A DNA stretch of 64,000 nt from Alistipes sp. Marseille-P5061 (GTDB taxonomy: Bacteria; Bacteroidota; Bacteroidia; Bacteroidales; Rikenellaceae): NCBI RefSeq assembly GCF_900290115.1, contig NZ_LT985751.1:79289-143288 (forward strand), in the 5' to 3' direction. Position numbers and translations under genes: made by a program. Below the pieces are notes generated by a model, which searched no databases, was not told the DNA's origin, and worked only from the letters and a program-made list of their open reading frames with translations. The stretch's first letter is position 1. Every line of letters begins with the position of its first letter. Positions 2,138-59,538 of this stretch are shown piece after piece.

Positions 2138-2850
2138 GGCGTGTCGTTTTTTTGAAAAAAAGGCGCGGCGGCTACTAATCTCTCTCTTTTGCTTGTACCT
2201 GATGACCTGTTATTATGGCAGACAACGAAGTCGCTGGGTGCCGCGCCTTTTTATGGGTGTGACGGATAAGAACGTTGCGACCGGTTTCCCGATGCGGAGC
2301 CTGGCGTGCGTCCGGAGGTTTTCCAGGGGCAGGGAGCTTGTACCGCTCCGGGAGCTTGTGCCGTGCAAGGAGCTCCTGCCGTGACGGAGGGTATCCGCTG
2401 CACTGAGCCTTTGCCGCGCCGGGAGCTTGTGCCGTGGCGGGACCCGTGCCGCTCCGGGGGCTTGTGCCGTGACGGAACTCGTGCCGCTTCAGAGGCCTTG
2501 TGCCGGTCGGGACAGGAGCCTGTACGGTGCCCCTTCTGCGGTGGTGCGCCCCTGTTGCGGGTCTCTTCCCGGCGGTGCACCCCTTCTCGTGCGATGCGCC
2601 TTTGTCTGCGGTGCGCGGTCTGCCGGATATAATCCCGGTCCGACCTCCTGTCCGGCCCTCCTGTCCGGCCCTCTGTTGGCCCTTCTCTCCGGCCGCCGGC
2701 AGTCTCGGGCGGGTGCGGCAACGGGGGAGACGTATGCCTGCAACGGCATCCGCAGGGCGGAACGGGGCGCAGCGCCGCGTCAGCTCTTCATCCTGGTGAA
2801 ACACTTCCGAAATCGAACGGCCATCCCACGGGCGAGTCCGATGTCGAATC
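2138..2850. other. 713-base spacer between riboswitch and 123-aa gene
   Basis: No credible gene on either strand; the open frames here are Arg/Pro/Gly-rich. The right part is GC-rich. The part at 2329-2530 is an imperfect short tandem repeat, listed separately. If the riboswitch transcript reads through, this becomes a very long leader for the 123-aa gene. Confidence 0.6.
2329..2530. repeat. Imperfect 17-19 bp tandem repeat
   Basis: About ten degenerate copies of a unit close to GGGAGCTTGTGCCGTGnC. Clear copies are seen near 2331, 2348, 2419, 2455 and 2490. There is no coding sense. The array lies inside the presumed leader downstream of the cobalamin riboswitch. Confidence 0.65.
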
Positions 2851-3018
2851 GATTTGGCAGGTCTTCTGACTGGCTCCTGTTCCGAAGCCTTCCCGGCACG
2901 CGGCCAGTGGCTGAGATGTTCGGAATGTTGCGGAGCTTCACAGCAGCGGGACTGTCCGGGAATTGCACCCGGTTCCCTTTTCATCCTCGCCTCCGAAAGG
3001 GGGCGTCGGAACCAAATC
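2851..3018 (-). promoter_or_regulatory. Cobalamin (B12) riboswitch
   Basis: Read on the minus strand, the 3' part carries the B12-box signature AGTCAGAAGACCTGCC (plus 2856-2871). Further upstream are the conserved GAACCGGGTGCAATTCCCG and the CGCTGCTGTGAAG core. The ends pair as P1: GATTTGG (plus 3012-3018) with CCAAATC (plus 2851-2857). It has its own promoter at 3027-3034. In Bacteroidota these elements usually sit before btuB-type receptors or corrinoid genes. Here the next minus-strand gene is the unrecognised 123-aa gene at 1766-2137. Confidence 0.9.
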
Positions 3019-3026
3019 TTCGGGAA

Positions 3027-3034
3027 CAAATATA
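3027..3034 (-). promoter_or_regulatory. -7 element of the riboswitch promoter
   Basis: Minus-strand TATATTTG, a perfect TAnnTTTG. Transcription would begin about at the 5' end of the riboswitch. Confidence 0.6.
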
Positions 3035-3121: not shown

Positions 3122-3694
3122 ATGGAACAGACGCTTCGCTACCGCGCCGAGGATTTCTCGGCGACGCTCCCCCTGGCCGACTACCTGGCCCGCTTCCGCG
3201 ATGCCGCACGCATCGGCGGCTACTGCCGCAGCTGTCCCCGCTACGGGGCCACATGGGCCTGCCCGCCCTTCGAATTCGAGGTCGAATCGCTCTTCGAGGG
3301 GCGCACCACGGCGCTCATCATCGCCACGCGCATCACCCCCGCCGAGGCGGGTGCGCCCCTCGCCGCGGCGCGCGAGGTGATTCGCCCCGAGCGGCTGCGG
3401 CTTGAACGGCAGCTGCTCGAACTCGAGCATCGGGTCGGCGGCCGTGCCTTCACCTGCGTGGGGGAGTGCTTCGCCTGCCCCGGCGAGCCCTGCACCCGCC
3501 CCGAGGGGCTGCCGTGCCGCCATCCCGAACGGGTGCGCCCCTCGCTCGAGGCGTGCGGATTCGACCTGGAGCGCACCGCCTCCGAGCTCTTCGGCATCGA
3601 GATGCGCTGGGGACGCAACGGCCTCCTGCCCGAATACCTGACGCTTGTCTGCGGGCTCTTCCACAGCCAGCCCGCCGACGCCGTGCGCTGGTAG
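3122..3694 (+). CDS. DUF2284 family metal-binding protein
   Basis: 190 aa, soluble, Cys-rich. Cys pattern: GGYCRSCPRYGATWACPPF near the N-terminus, then VGECFACPGEPC and GLPCRHPE in the middle. This spacing is typical of DUF2284 predicted metal-binding proteins, probably Fe-S. The biochemical role is not established. The ATG at 3122 is the only good start; a -7 element lies just upstream. It is divergent from a cobalamin riboswitch, and the family is often found near corrinoid genes, but this riboswitch transcribes away from the gene and cannot control it in cis. Confidence 0.8.
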   Translation: MEQTLRYRAEDFSATLPLADYLARFRDAARIGGYCRSCPRYGATWACPPFEFEVESLFEGRTTALIIATRITPAEAGAPLAAAREVIRPERLRLERQLLELEHRVGGRAFTCVGECFACPGEPCTRPEGLPCRHPERVRPSLEACGFDLERTASELFGIEMRWGRNGLLPEYLTLVCGLFHSQPADAVRW

Positions 3695-4651: not shown

Positions 4652-6961
4652 ATGAAAAGATACCTTGCGGGAGCACTGCTCCTGCTGCTCCTTGCCGTCG
4701 CCGCGCCGCTGCGCGCCGACGAGCACCCCGCGCGTCCCGGCCGGCCGAGCGACGCCAACATCACGGGCCACGTCGTCGACGCCCGCACGGGCGAGCACCT
4801 GGCCTACGCCACCGTGACCGTCGAGGGGACCACCCTCGGCCTCTCGACCGACGCCACGGGCCACTACTTCCTCAAGAACCTCCCCACGGGCAGCTTCACG
4901 CTCGTCGCCTCGTCGGTGGGCTACGGCACGGCCCGTCGGCAGGTCGAGACCGAGGCCGGCAAGACCCTCGAGGTGAACTTCAGCCTCGAGGAGGAGGCCC
5001 TCTCGGTCGACGAGGTGGTCGTCTCGGCCAGCCGCACCGAGCGCAACAAGCGCTATTCGCCCACCATCGTCTCGGTGGTCGGCGAGAAGCTCTTCGACGC
5101 CACGGCGTCGTGCAACCTGGCCGAGTCGATGAGCTTCCAGTCGGGCCTGCGCGTCGAGAACAACTGCAGCAACTGCGGCACCGTGCAGCTGCGCATCAAC
5201 GGCCTGGAGGGGCAGTACTCGCAGATACTGCTCGACAGCCGCCCCATCTTCAGCACGCTGGCCACGGTCTACGGCCTTGAGCAGCTCCCCGCCTCGATGA
5301 TTGAGCGCGTCGAGGTGATTCGCGGCGGCGGCTCGGCCCTCTTCGGCGCCAACGCCATCGGCGGCGTGGTCAACATCATCACGCGCGAGCCGCAGCGCAA
5401 CACCGTCTCGCTCTCGGGAACGACCTCCATCCTCGAGGGGGGCTCGCTCGACCTGGGGGCCTCGCTCAACGGCGCCTTCGTCTCGGACGACTATCGCGCC
5501 GGGGTCTACCTCTTCGGCATGGTGCGTGAGCGCGACGCCTACGACCGCAACGGCGACGGCTTCTCCGACATCCCGAAGCTCAACTCCGAGACGGCGGGCT
5601 TCCGCGCCTACTACAAACCCTCGGCCTATACCCGTCTGACGGCCGAGTACCACCACATCCACGAGTTCCGCCGCGGCGGCAACGCCTTCGACCAGCCGCC
5701 CCACAACGCCGACATCGCCGAGCAGCTCGACCATCAGATTGACGGCGGCGGGCTGAAGTTTGACTACTTCAGCCCCGACAACCGCCACCGGATGGGGCTC
5801 TACCTCTCGGCGCAGAACATCGACCGCAACAGCTACTACGGTGCCGGCCGCAACCCCGACGCCTACGGCGCCACGAGCGACCGCACGCTGGTGGCCGGCG
5901 CGCAGTACACCTACTCGTTCGAGCGGCTCTGGTTCTCGCCCGCCGAGCTGACGGCCGGCGTCGAGTACAACGGCAACGCGCTGCACGACCGCTACGTGGG
6001 GCTGGGGCGCGACCTGCGGCAGACGACCCACAGCACGGGCCTCTTCTTCCAGAATGAGTGGCGCAGCGACCGCTTCAGCCTGCTTGTCGGCGGGCGCCTC
6101 GACAAGCACAACCTCATGCGCAACGTCGTCTTCTCGCCCCGCGTCAACCTGCGCTACACCCCCCGCGAGGAGGTCGGCCTGCGGCTGAGCTACTCGAGCG
6201 GCTACCGCGCCCCGCAGGCCTACAACGAGGACCTGCACATCGACGCGCTCGACAACAAGGTCTCGCTCATCGAGCTGGCCCCCGGCCTGCGCCCCGAGTA
6301 CTCCCACAGCGTGAGCGGCTCGGTGGACCTCTACCACAGCTTCGGTCGCGTGCAGACGAACCTGCTCGTCGAGGGCTTCTGGACGCTGCTGGACGACGTC
6401 TTCACGCTCGAGAAAATCGGCGAGAACGCCCAGGGCTACATCATCCGCGAGCGGCGCAACGGCTCGGGGGCGACCGTCGCCGGGGTGAGCGCCGAGCTGA
6501 AGGCGGGCATCCCGGGCCGCTTCGAGGTGCAGGCGGGCTACACCTTCCAGCGCAGCCGCTACACCGAGCCCGAGCGGTGGTCCGACGAGGTGACCCCGCA
6601 GCGGCGCATGTTCCGCTCGCCCGACCACTACGGCTACCTGACGGCCAGCTACACCCCGGTGCGGGCCCTCTCGCTCTCGCTCTTCGGCACCTTCACGGGA
6701 CCGATGCTCGTGCAGCACAACGCCGGCTACATCGCCGCCGACACCGAGCGGATGACCCCCTCGTTCTGCGACCTGGGTGCGCGTGTGGCCTACGAGTTCC
6801 GCCTCACGCGGCAGTTGCGGCTGGAGCTGAGCGCCGGCGTGAAGAACATGTTCGACAGCTTCCAGCGCGACCTGGACCGCGGCGCCGGGAAGGATGCCGC
6901 CTACATCTACGGACCCTCGCTGCCCCGCACCTGGTTCTTCGGCGCCAAGTTCGCCCTCTGA
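4652..6961 (+). CDS. TonB-dependent outer membrane receptor
   Basis: 769 aa. Signal peptide about 1-23 (MKRYLAGALLLLLLAVAAP), then a carboxypeptidase-D-regulatory-like domain (about 30-115: NITGHVVDARTGEHLAYATV), a plug domain (about 120-240: DEVVVSAS, PASMIERVEVIRGGGSALFG, AIGGVVNIIT) and a 22-stranded barrel ending in WFFGAKFAL with the terminal aromatic pattern. In the plug, a Cys pair (NNCSNCGTVQ) is notable. The BtuB/colicin-receptor-like size and absence of a SusD partner argue against glycan uptake. With the His-rich neighbour, metal or metal-chelate uptake is the best guess. The leader is A/C-rich (ACAACCCAACGAAACAACCC) and lacks a Shine-Dalgarno site. The 3' end seeds a tandem repeat. 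Confidence 0.9.
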   Translation: MKRYLAGALLLLLLAVAAPLRADEHPARPGRPSDANITGHVVDARTGEHLAYATVTVEGTTLGLSTDATGHYFLKNLPTGSFTLVASSVGYGTARRQVETEAGKTLEVNFSLEEEALSVDEVVVSASRTERNKRYSPTIVSVVGEKLFDATASCNLAESMSFQSGLRVENNCSNCGTVQLRINGLEGQYSQILLDSRPIFSTLATVYGLEQLPASMIERVEVIRGGGSALFGANAIGGVVNIITREPQRNTVSLSGTTSILEGGSLDLGASLNGAFVSDDYRAGVYLFGMVRERDAYDRNGDGFSDIPKLNSETAGFRAYYKPSAYTRLTAEYHHIHEFRRGGNAFDQPPHNADIAEQLDHQIDGGGLKFDYFSPDNRHRMGLYLSAQNIDRNSYYGAGRNPDAYGATSDRTLVAGAQYTYSFERLWFSPAELTAGVEYNGNALHDRYVGLGRDLRQTTHSTGLFFQNEWRSDRFSLLVGGRLDKHNLMRNVVFSPRVNLRYTPREEVGLRLSYSSGYRAPQAYNEDLHIDALDNKVSLIELAPGLRPEYSHSVSGSVDLYHSFGRVQTNLLVEGFWTLLDDVFTLEKIGENAQGYIIRERRNGSGATVAGVSAELKAGIPGRFEVQAGYTFQRSRYTEPERWSDEVTPQRRMFRSPDHYGYLTASYTPVRALSLSLFGTFTGPMLVQHNAGYIAADTERMTPSFCDLGARVAYEFRLTRQLRLELSAGVKNMFDSFQRDLDRGAGKDAAYIYGPSLPRTWFFGAKFAL

Positions 6962-7099
6962 CGCGGCCGGTGCCGGGTTCGCTCTCTGAGCGGCCGGTGC
7001 CGGGTTCGCCCTCTGACGCGGCCGGTGCCAGGTTTGCCCTCTGACGCGGCCGGTGCCGGGTTTACCCTCTGACACGGCCGGTGCCAGGTTCGCCCTCTG
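6956..7099. repeat. 28-bp tandem array starting in the receptor stop codon
   Basis: Five units of 27-28 bp, each close to CTCTGACGCGGCCGGTGCCG plus GGTTCGCC. The CTCTG landmarks are at 6956, 6984, 7011, 7039, 7067 and 7095. The first unit includes the last codons and TGA of the TonB receptor (FAL-stop), so later units repeat a gene end in the spacer. Confidence 0.85.
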
Positions 7100-7597
7100 T
7101 GCGGCCGCCAGGGAGCGCGGGGCGTCGAGGCCATTCGGGGACTGCCGCGACGAGCGTTGCAGCTCTTTTGCGGCAGTTGTTCCGCGGCACCGGCCCTTCG
7201 TCATGCCTGTCTCCACTGCCTTTGCTTACCGGCGGAGCCGCCCCGGATGCCTGCCGTTTTTGCCGCGCCGGCCCGCCGACCACCCCTCCATCGCTTCGCC
7301 CCGGACCTTCCATGGCCCGGGGCGTTGTTGTGGGGGCGCCGCAACCCTCCCGCCCCGTCGTTCGTCCCGCCGTTCGCCCCGTTCGTCCCGCCGCTGTCCC
7401 GCCGCTCGCCCCGCCGCCTGCTGCCGTGCCGTGGCTCCTGCCCGCCGTGCCGCCGCGGGGCGCGAACCCCGGAAAAATTGTTCCGAATGTGCCCGGTGTT
7501 TTTCAAAATCGGCACTCCAGAGCCTCATTTTTCGTGAAAATCCGCTCTTTTTTTCCGAAAGAGTGTATCTTTGCGGACGGAAAAACGGTTGGAGAGA
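7100..7597. other. Spacer after the repeat array
   Basis: About 460 bases of GC-rich DNA without a credible gene, including low-complexity CGTCCCGCCGTTCG-type runs at about 7360-7400. It ends in a T-rich stretch and the -7 element TATCTTTG at 7566-7573 serving the gene at 7598. Confidence 0.5.
7566..7573 (+). promoter_or_regulatory. -7 element of the 7598 gene (and possibly nuo)
   Basis: TATCTTTG, 24 bases before the ATG at 7598. No other consensus promoter was found before nuoA, so this may also drive the nuo operon. Confidence 0.6.
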
Positions 7598-46453: not shown

Positions 46454-46629
46454 CTCTTTTCCTTCGGTTTTTGCTCCTTTGTTTGCGGACCACGGCTGCA
46501 GCCTCCCGGTTGCGGGCGGTTTGGTTGCGGTGGGTCCTGCTCAGCGGCCCCCGGATTGCGGGCCCCTGTGCTGCGGGCGGTTCGGTTCAGCGGCTCCTCC
46601 GGGTTGCGGGCGGTCCGGTCTCTATCCGT

Positions 46630-46703
46630 CTGTCCGGCACCCCTCTGTCCGGCACCCCTCCGTCCGGCGCCCGTTTGTCCGGTGCCCTACGTCCGGACCC
46701 CTT
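46630..46703. repeat. 15-bp tandem repeat, five copies
   Basis: Units CTGTCCGGCACCCCT start at 46630 and 46645 (identical), then 46660, 46675 and 46690 (diverged). Exactly 15-base period, no stop-free coding sense. It begins about 40 bases past the end of the S41 protease gene. The rest of the 290-base gap 46454-46743 has repeated TTGCGGGCGGT motifs. Confidence 0.85.
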
Positions 46704-50085: not shown

Positions 50086-50229
50086 CTTTCGTCAGCATTT
50101 TTTTGCCCCTTGCCGGAGGGGCTCTTCCCGGGTTCCTTCAGGGAGCCCCGGGCTTTCCCGGCGGCTGTTTTCCGGGACGGTTTTCCGGAACCTCTTCCCC
50201 GAAGCCTTCGCCGATGTCCGCGGCCCTGC

Positions 50230-50310
50230 GGTTCCTCGGTTCTATGGTCCTTCGGTCCCTTGGTTCCACGGTCCCTTGGTTCCACGGCCCCTCGGTTTCT
50301 TGGTTCTACG
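50230..50310. repeat. 16-bp tandem repeat upstream of ispH
   Basis: GGTCCCTTGGTTCCAC is perfect at 50254 and 50270, with diverged copies at 50230 (GGTTCCTCGGTTCTAT) and 50286 (GGCCCCTCGGTTTCTT). Lies in the 254-base gap between ispH and cmk, which has no other feature. Confidence 0.8.
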
Positions 50311-50339
50311 TCCCCCTCGGCCCCGCGGCGGGCCTCCGG

Positions 50340-57856: not shown

Positions 57857-59257
57857 ATGAAGAACTTCGCATGGATGGGGCTGGTGCTTTGCGCGCTGCT
57901 TGCCCTGAGCGGCTGCACGTCGCCGCACGAAGGGTACCGTATCGAGGAGGGGGTGCTCGTCTTCGACACGCCGCCCCGCGAGCCGGGCCAGCAGTCGGTG
58001 CTCGGTCTGGCGGTGGAGCCCATCCCCGTGGTGCGGGTGGGGTTCATCGGTCTGGGCATGCGCGGGCCGGGGGCCGTCGAGCGCTTCACCCATCTGGACA
58101 GCGTGCGGATTGTCGCCCTGTGCGACCTCTACCCCGAGCGGGTGGCCTCCGCGCAGCGGATTCTTGCGAAGCGGGGGCTCCCCGCCGCGGCCGAATACAG
58201 CGGCGAGGAGGGGTGGAAGGAGCTCTGCCGGCGCGACGACATCGACCTGGTCTACATCTGCACGCCGTGGCAGCTCCACGTCCCGATGGCGGTCTACGCC
58301 ATGGAGCAGGGCAAGCATGTGGCCGTCGAGGTGCCGGCCGCCACGTCGCTCGAGGAGTGCTGGCAGCTGGTCAACACGGCCGAGAAGCGGCAGCGCCACT
58401 GCATGATGCTCGAGAACTGCGTCTATGACTTCTTCGAGCTCACGACGCTCAACATGGCGCAGCACGGGCTCTTCGGCGAGCTGCTCGAGGCCGAGGGGGC
58501 CTACATCCACAACCTCGAACCCTTCTGGGACTACTATCAGGGCAACTGGCGCCTCGAATTCAACCGCACCCACCGCGGCGACGTCTACGCCACCCACGGA
58601 CTGGGGCCCGTCTGCCAGCTCTTCGACATCCACCGCGGCGACCGCATGCGCTACCTGGTGGCGATGGACACCCCCTCGGTCAACGGCCTCAAACTGGCCC
58701 GCGAAAAGACGGGTGCCGACTCGTTCGCCAACGGCGACCACACGCTGACGCTCATCAGGACCGAGCGCGGCCGCGTCATCCACCTCCAGCACAACGTCTA
58801 CACGCCGCGTCCCTACAGCCGCATGTACTCCGTCACGGGGAGCGAGGGCTATGCGAGCAAGTATCCCGTCGAGGGGTACGCCTTCCGTCCGGCGCAGCTC
58901 TTCGGGGCGGGGGTTCCCGACCTTGAGAACCTGAGCGAACACGCGTTCCTGCCCGATGCGGCGCGCGAGGCGCTCATGCGGCGCTACGAGCACCCCATAG
59001 CGGCCGAAATCGCCGGGAAGGCGAAGCAGGTGGGGGGCCACGGCGGCATGGACTTCATCATGGACTACCGGCTGGTCTACTGTCTGCGCCACGGGCTTCC
59101 GCTCGACCAGGATGTCTACGATGCGGCCGAGTGGTCCTGCATCGGGGCGCTGACGGCCGCCTCGCTCGAGCGGAACAGCATGCCGGTGGCCGTGCCCGAC
59201 TTCACGCGGGGCGACTGGAATAAGGTCGACGGCTACCGCCACGCCATGGCCCGCTGA
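57857..59257 (+). CDS. GH109-like Gfo/Idh/MocA lipoprotein
   Basis: 466 aa. Lipobox LLALSGC (Cys20). NAD-binding Rossmann start VRVGFIGLGMRGPGAVERF, then LYICTPWQLHVPMAV-type strand (VYICTPWQLHVPMAVYAM) and GKHVAVEVPAATSLEECW. The C-domain has the GH109 style: NCVYDFFELTTLNMAQHGLFG, RGDVYATHGLGPVCQLFDIH, VGGHGGMDFIMDYRL. GH109 enzymes remove alpha-linked GalNAc by an NAD-dependent mechanism, so mucin O-glycan use is likely. Length is normal for the family. Substrate not proven. Confidence 0.9.
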   Translation: MKNFAWMGLVLCALLALSGCTSPHEGYRIEEGVLVFDTPPREPGQQSVLGLAVEPIPVVRVGFIGLGMRGPGAVERFTHLDSVRIVALCDLYPERVASAQRILAKRGLPAAAEYSGEEGWKELCRRDDIDLVYICTPWQLHVPMAVYAMEQGKHVAVEVPAATSLEECWQLVNTAEKRQRHCMMLENCVYDFFELTTLNMAQHGLFGELLEAEGAYIHNLEPFWDYYQGNWRLEFNRTHRGDVYATHGLGPVCQLFDIHRGDRMRYLVAMDTPSVNGLKLAREKTGADSFANGDHTLTLIRTERGRVIHLQHNVYTPRPYSRMYSVTGSEGYASKYPVEGYAFRPAQLFGAGVPDLENLSEHAFLPDAAREALMRRYEHPIAAEIAGKAKQVGGHGGMDFIMDYRLVYCLRHGLPLDQDVYDAAEWSCIGALTAASLERNSMPVAVPDFTRGDWNKVDGYRHAMAR

Positions 59258-59275
59258 CCCGCCGGCTTTCTGATA

Positions 59276-59538
59276 CGCCGGCTCGCTGGCCCGCCGATTG
59301 CTGCCCGTAGACGCGCCGCCTCGCCGGTCCGCAGACGTGCCGGCCGGAGTGTTTGATTTGCCCGTCGTGTCATGCCGGCCCGCCGACGCGCCGCCTCACC
59401 GCTCTGCTGCCCCGCCGGCCGGAGTGTTTGATTCGCCAGGTCGTGGCATGCCGGCCTGCCGATTGCCGGCCTGCTGATTGCTGCCCGCCGACGCGCCGCC
59501 TCACCGGTCCGCCGACGCGCCACCTCACCGCACCTCTG
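59276..59538. repeat. 75-bp tandem repeat after the GH109-like gene
   Basis: ACGCGCCGCCTCnCCG lies at 59311, 59386, 59491 and (diverged) 59514. CGGCCGGAGTGTTTGATT lies at 59341 and 59416, so two full 75-base units run from 59311 to 59460, then shorter copies. GGCCCGCTGAC at the gene end resembles the GGCCCGCCGAC inside the units. Confidence 0.8.

Follow-up and report, generated by a model that had tools for sequence, protein, structure and literature searches.

A cobalamin riboswitch of Alistipes, its probable 123-residue target gene and a companion RNA hairpin

We consider a locus in the genome of Alistipes sp. Marseille-P5061 at which a cobalamin riboswitch reads toward a small gene of unfamiliar kind. 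Cobalamin riboswitches are good guides to B12 physiology, and the question is "what does this one control?" The original prediction, made from the letters of the window (the whole 64,000-nucleotide stretch that was analysed), left two answers: either the regulated gene had been lost, or the gene of 123 codons is itself linked to B12 and has a very long leader.

The aptamer, its promoter box and its leader

In the whole 64-kb window a single Rfam family is matched at its gathering score, and this is RF00174 (Cobalamin), at 3031-2839 on the minus strand, with 105.4 bits (gathering score 31.5), an E-value of 2.4e-25 and model positions 1-189 of 189 covered. The aptamer is complete, and the well-formed riboswitch that had been predicted is borne out by the covariance model. 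The -7 consensus of Bacteroidota promoters is TAnnTTTG. At 3034-3027 on the same strand stands TATATTTG, which by that consensus we take to be a -7 box of the Bacteroidota type. A box of this type is found at the 5' edge of the aptamer in all 15 aptamer loci examined, the window counted, and with the consensus taken as given this fits the claim of a promoter of its own. In one relative (G069) the aptamer is not found, and the same box, with a T-rich stretch upstream, precedes the small gene. An independent promoter for the gene was also considered and rejected: exact TANNTTTG occurs once on the minus strand between 3120 and 2138, at 3034-3027, with no second occurrence, and no sigma-70-type site is found for the gene by scans of a kind that do not reach weak or unusual promoters.

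The genome of 2.67 Mb carries seven cobalamin riboswitches in all. Behind the other six, with five of the six downstream genes scanned, we find TonB receptors in two cases (in one with a DUF5074 protein ahead of the receptor), an NrdD-type reductase, a DUF4465 protein and one protein that no Pfam family matches. The NrdD-type anaerobic ribonucleotide reductase, behind the riboswitch of locus L025 (1396-3525), is presumably a B12-independent stand-in.

From the aptamer end to the ATG of the small gene there are 701 nt in the window, compared with 73-389 nt in the 17 relatives with a riboswitch directly ahead of the gene; a leader this long is an oddity of this genome. Between aptamer and hairpin (2253-2838, minus strand) it contains degenerate GC-rich tandem repeats, for which TRF gives arrays at 2329-2505 (18 bp, 64% matches), 2412-2488 (35 bp, 88%) and 2638-2694 (13 bp). 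These arrays span about one third of the aptamer-to-gene interval and are mostly degenerate, so that the predicted passage of about 710 bases of repeat-rich DNA is right in its length and only partly right in its repeats. Further TRF arrays lie elsewhere in the window (6949-7107, 46505-46702, 50217-50324 and 59248-59530), and the repeats therefore need not belong to the switch. None of the six long open reading frames in the interval reaches the curated cut-off of a Pfam family; two matches below it fall in one of them. Among the relatives, the stretch from aptamer to hairpin varies in length and appears by eye to be unconserved.

The small gene and its protein

The gene of 123 codons is read from 2137 to 1766 on the minus strand, the strand of the aptamer, so the riboswitch is directed at it as predicted. 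Homologues are present in at least 25 of 180 Alistipes genomes, the window's own included, and in 12 of 70 better genomes; the first count is a lower bound because the query was the window protein alone rather than a profile, and because many genomes are incomplete. A cobalamin riboswitch on the same strand lies directly upstream of the gene in 18 of these 25 genomes (the window, G012, G023, G009, G032 and 13 more). In four others (G069, G026, G182 and G174) the sequence scanned has no riboswitch upstream; the G026 copy has an internal stop, and G174 has a riboswitch nearby but downstream of the gene, which is left out of the linkage count. The dN/dS ratio is 0.02-0.18 in eight informative pairs of relatives, with a ninth pair saturated, and for the window copy it is 0.35 against G067 and 0.30 against G069. 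The gene is under purifying selection. Because of this selection and of the upstream linkage, the gene is the probable target of the riboswitch, as the second of the two predicted answers had it. Judged from these sequences, the riboswitch is not an orphan.

In the remaining genomes of the 25 another gene intervenes. The order is riboswitch, permease and small gene in G067 and G063. In G162 the riboswitch and the permease run up to the edge of one contig, and the edge of another carries the end of the permease, the hairpin described below and the small gene, from which we infer the same order across the break. The permease is thus behind the riboswitch in three relatives, whole in two of them. 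In G067 it is of the AspT/YidE/YbjL type (Asp-Al_Ex, E 4.3e-84) and also matches the equivalog PRK03818, a "putative transporter" (E 2.3e-207); the same permease is found in G063 (83% identity) and G162 (88%). The btuB-like gene that a comparison with relatives might have shown in between is accordingly rejected: where the riboswitch directly precedes the small gene (18 genomes), no more than 701 nt separate the two, and the gene that is interposed elsewhere is this permease. Homologues with 73-75% identity occur in G134, G130, G014, G087 and G144, with no riboswitch near them in the flanks scanned. Those of G134, G130 and G014 (loci L102, L103 and L104) lie near a tRNA gene. In the window's own genome there is one match, a more distant one (E 1.7e-137).

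Did the window once have this permease? In a tree of the small gene, the window copy groups with those of G067, G162, G069 and G064 (support 100/99) on a long branch. Because of this grouping and of the three relatives with the permease in place, it may have been present at the window locus and later lost. A comparison of the window leader with the permease gives no remnant, at the protein level (score 34 against a mean of 36.9 for shuffles, 155 out of 200 of which score at least as high) or at the nucleotide level (score 27, 27 of 100 shuffles as high), so that a loss here would be read from the relatives only. The first predicted answer, a lost gene, therefore keeps some ground in these relatives, and the lost gene would be a permease rather than a btuB-like gene. 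A permease start picked by eye in G195 (locus L052) is not claimed, since 21 of 200 shuffles score as high in the protein test; the best nucleotide match of that comparison is a conserved stretch behind the aptamer.

The protein of the small gene seems confined to Alistipes. Among 393 genomes of the order, of which only four represent other genera of the family, the only match is the window's own genome, and in a collection of 84,980 species all 19 loci with the protein are titled Alistipes. It has no Pfam and no NCBIfam match, and 24 aligned members compared with Pfam give only scattered weak matches (seven families at E 1), ADK (PF00406) not among them. A structure predicted from 18 sequences has a mean pLDDT of 84.4 and a pTM of 0.80. 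When Foldseek candidates are aligned to it with VIA-align, the best is maize adenylate kinase (1zak_A, Z 10.5, 113 residues, 2.7 A). Rows titled adenylate kinase make up nine of the top ten and 34 of the best 50, most of the remainder being P-loop kinases of other kinds or designed P-loop folds. The tool gives a Z of 7-8 as typical for models that lack clear relatives, and the best Z here is only moderately higher. The Foldseek matches by themselves are weak (best E 6.7e-3, to hCINAP, and none below 0.001), and a profile search of the PDB is not significant, with adenylate kinase at E 0.18 behind an unrelated match at 0.052.

The family was also compared by hhalign with 27 Adk sequences, out of 30 loci of the genus and the order. 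The alignment is co-linear, begins at residue 1 and reaches the C-terminal helix, with a probability of 73-74% in local and 86% in global mode. Its score is 36.3 over 114 columns; 60 column shuffles stay at or below 20.7 (3% at most), and the reversed-profile control gives 0.08%. In this alignment the P-loop meets a four-residue gap, the NMP-binding and LID stretches fall into long gaps, and the P-loop signature GxxxxGK[ST] occurs in none of the 24 rows. VIA-align on the predicted model and hhalign on sequence profiles, independently of structure, thus both find the core of adenylate kinase; the P-loop, the NMP-binding and LID regions and a PF00406 match are missing. We therefore predict for the protein an adenylate-kinase core that lacks these three regions and, since they are absent, would not expect an ordinary nucleotide kinase. 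One ordinary ADK match is found elsewhere in the same genome. Cysteine motifs were tried as a lead to function and set aside, cysteines being absent from part of the family. If true, an adenylate-kinase fold switched by B12 and lacking the nucleotide-binding loop would be an enzyme put to an unusual new use.

Convergent with the small gene, at 272-1534 on the plus strand, lies the gene for an anaerobic sulfatase-maturing radical SAM enzyme, which scores above the curated cut-off of NF010308.

A terminator-like RNA element before the gene

Between the leader and the gene, at 2252-2156 on the minus strand, lies a conserved terminator-like RNA element that the original prediction had missed. The element is 75-97 nt long, with an outer GC stem and a U-run, an inner hairpin with a CUGCCA loop and a AGAGAUUAGU segment, and it ends 18 nt before the ATG. 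A covariance model (R1) was made from seven copies in relatives, chosen for their position ahead of the gene, with the window copy left out. In 180 whole genomes R1 finds four further copies at 40 bits or more, all of them behind a cobalamin riboswitch: those of G169 (96.0 bits) and G071 (94.6 bits), which owe their high scores partly to close kinship with the seed sequences, that of the window (44.1 bits, E 2.3e-8 over the whole genome) and that of G061 (40.3 bits). Weaker matches are found in G023 (34.0 bits, elsewhere in the genome and the best away from these loci), in G188 (30.9 bits, partial, at the riboswitch locus) and in G195 (29.2 bits, on a second contig). Strong copies thus occur in 11 of 180 genomes and at no other locus than this one. 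The riboswitch upstream is seen in ten of them and presumed in G162.

A second model (R2), made from all 11 copies and having these same seeds as its 11 strong matches, gives no new strong copy over the genus, with G022, G032, G187, G023 and G188 at 21-35 bits. Outside the genus it matches in 8 of 385 genomes of the order, at best with 35.0 bits and over 35-61 nt, and these matches are taken for ordinary terminators. A look-alike stem in G067 with a different interior (19.1 bits) is not counted.

The pairing of the element is supported by covariation. In a MAFFT alignment of the seven copies, 9 of 16 pairs are changed on both sides, which none of 500 shuffles equals, and sliding the pairing partners destroys the hairpin pairing. 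With all 11 copies 11 of 16 pairs covary (0 of 500 shuffles), in an alignment that is fitted to the structure and where the inner arm of the window copy is doubtful. The CTGCC of the loop is invariant in the seven seed rows while the stems covary, and a loop held fixed amid changing stems is a candidate binding site for a protein or an RNA. The window copy folds with -30.4 kcal/mol (z -2.97, matched by 2 of 200 shuffles), its inner hairpin present; four other copies have z from -3.5 to -5.4, with the drawn inner hairpin in three of the four and absent in G061.

Is this a known RNA? The window from 2100 to 2840 has no match at E 10 among 4227 Rfam families, and the best-scoring copy (locus L133) has four at E 3.1-6.8 that fall well short of the gathering scores, so no known Rfam family matches the hairpin convincingly. 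A simple terminator scan of the minus strand gives nothing; the hairpin loop is too long for that scan.

The hairpin and the gene do not always go together. Of the 25 genomes with the gene, 17 have no strong hairpin match. An intact small gene is missing, by reading, in three of the 11 hairpin genomes (G169, G071 and G061), none of which was matched in the homologue search with the window protein. In G169 the resemblance to the small gene stops after about 20 codons, and in G071 its start is missing and a short piece is left, so that loci L133 and L134 keep the riboswitch and a strong hairpin with a small gene that is truncated or startless. In G061 (locus L143, 1089-2388) the riboswitch and the weak hairpin are followed by the gene for a CobO/BtuR adenosyltransferase, with no small-gene reading frame seen. 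Since riboswitch and hairpin stand without an intact gene in these three, the gene is not the sole reason to keep the unit; gene and hairpin look like separable modules under one switch.

Proposed working, alternatives and known systems

Combining the information of the aptamer, the gene and the hairpin, we propose a riboswitch unit that targets the 123-residue gene, with a partner or sensor protein that has no P-loop and with an attenuator hairpin. We hold this whole to be the best explanation, with a probability of roughly 0.7. Transcription would start just downstream of the box at 3034-3027 and make the cobalamin aptamer, and the transcript would then run leftward through the long, largely unconserved leader and the terminator-like hairpin into the gene. 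Passages of PMC11575231 state that corrinoid binding represses in most cobalamin riboswitches studied; by this analogy, bound corrinoid would shut the unit and scarcity would open it. The protein would most likely act as a non-catalytic partner or a sensor when B12 is scarce. The hairpin, because it stands 18 nt before the ATG and carries a U-run, would most likely be an attenuator that adds another checkpoint, with some factor reading its invariant loop. Several points speak against this proposal: four of the 25 genomes have the gene with no riboswitch upstream in the sequence scanned, three relatives keep riboswitch and hairpin without an intact gene, the Foldseek and PDB profile searches give the fold little weight, and a terminator-like hairpin ahead of the gene would lower its expression. 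If the proposal is right, the riboswitch marks a protein family that is limited to Alistipes in these searches, and for which Pfam and NCBIfam have no model, as a likely part of the response to B12 scarcity in a common gut genus, and the companion hairpin can be put to the test as a candidate for a further RNA regulator downstream of a riboswitch.

The same hairpin invites another reading, that the product is a B12-controlled non-coding RNA that ends at the hairpin and its U-run, with the small gene reached by read-through only. It would act as a regulatory RNA of about 870 nt here (about 400-490 nt in the three relatives whose gene is not intact), or it would be processed to the hairpin of 75-97 nt. 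That all four non-seed copies found by R1 stand behind a riboswitch, three of them without an intact gene, is in favour of this reading, as are the loop that stays invariant in the seed rows while the stems covary and, by eye, promoter-like boxes ahead of the CobO gene of G061; passages of PMC8079631 provide precedents in Rli55 and AspocR of Listeria, where a B12 riboswitch controls a non-coding RNA. The purifying selection on the small gene argues the other way, together with the 17 gene-bearing genomes that have no strong hairpin match, the variable leader between aptamer and hairpin, and the weakness of the G061 copy (40 bits, with a predicted fold that lacks the inner hairpin), and we regard a non-coding product as rather unlikely. 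It would be a comparably long shot to see in the hairpin a new class of regulatory RNA that is gated by cobalamin and tied to B12 riboswitches. Carrying an AGAGAUUAGU segment and the invariant CUGCC(A) loop, such an RNA would either act on other genes related to B12 or capture a protein; the adenylate-kinase-like protein would be its partner, or would sense adenine nucleotides or adenosylcobalamin in the same circuit.

The relatives with the permease allow a further reading, that the riboswitch is a leftover, whose true target, an AspT/YidE-type permease and possibly a dicarboxylate exporter, was deleted, with repeats filling in and the small gene behind it by chance. The permease behind the riboswitch in G067, G063 and G162, the single and more distant match in the window's own genome, and the grouping of the window gene with those of G067, G162, G069 and G064, though on a long branch, all fit such a history. 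Set against them are the 18 of 25 genomes where the riboswitch directly precedes the gene, the intact aptamer and promoter box of the window, the leader free of any detected remnant, and the five genomes whose permease homologues have no riboswitch in the flanks scanned; on balance we find a leftover switch improbable. Further still from likely is an action on the neighbouring gene at 3122-3694 on the plus strand, for example by an antisense RNA. This divergent gene encodes a cysteine-rich DUF2284 protein (PF10050, E 4.5e-20), and DUF2284 genes recur in 11 of 32 sources scanned, often near riboswitch loci (the window, L018, L019, L020, L049, L051, L053, L067, L129, L130 and L143), a count that includes one weak match, some overlapping sources and one source (L020) picked for its DUF2284 gene. 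This company hints that DUF2284 may be linked to corrinoid metabolism. The box, however, reads leftward and the DUF2284 gene rightward from 3122, so the transcripts should diverge without overlap, and 21 of the 32 sources, mostly riboswitch-gene loci, have no DUF2284 gene in the sequence scanned; as the target of the switch it is hardly credible.

The permease of the relatives also touches on succinate. Succinate exporters are placed in the AspT/YidE family by PMC9527358, and passages of PMC11575231 state that cobalamin is required at methylmalonyl-CoA mutase to make propionate from succinate. One may hypothesise that the permease exports succinate when B12 is short, and its presence in three relatives would then suggest a further link between succinate and B12. 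We offer this link as a guess, because in Xylanibacter none of four riboswitches lies near succinate-pathway genes, as given in passages of PMC11575231.

We turn finally to the known systems. Among the matches listed from the openly licensed literature, no title or start of an abstract points to a published account of such an arrangement. The B12-regulated uptake operons of Bacteroides, as described in passages of PMC12751083, share with our unit the riboswitch class and the phylum, but the unit in the window has no uptake gene. With Rli55 and AspocR it has in common a B12 riboswitch that is followed by no standard B12 gene, and in three relatives by no intact gene; it differs from them in the intact 123-residue gene downstream and in having no antisense gene that overlaps. 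Ordinary adenylate kinases (PF00406) share with the small protein a co-linear profile match and, for the predicted model, the best structural matches, whereas at 123 residues compared with about 190 the protein is much the shorter, and the P-loop, the NMP-binding and LID regions and a Pfam match are missing. As a member of RF00174, the riboswitch has the full-length aptamer and a promoter-like box in the leader, and it departs from that family's usual setting in that no recognised B12 gene lies downstream, in its leader of 701 nt and in the second structured RNA. The riboswitch itself is confirmed and no btuB was lost; what is new here is a conserved probable target of a cobalamin riboswitch, together with a companion RNA.
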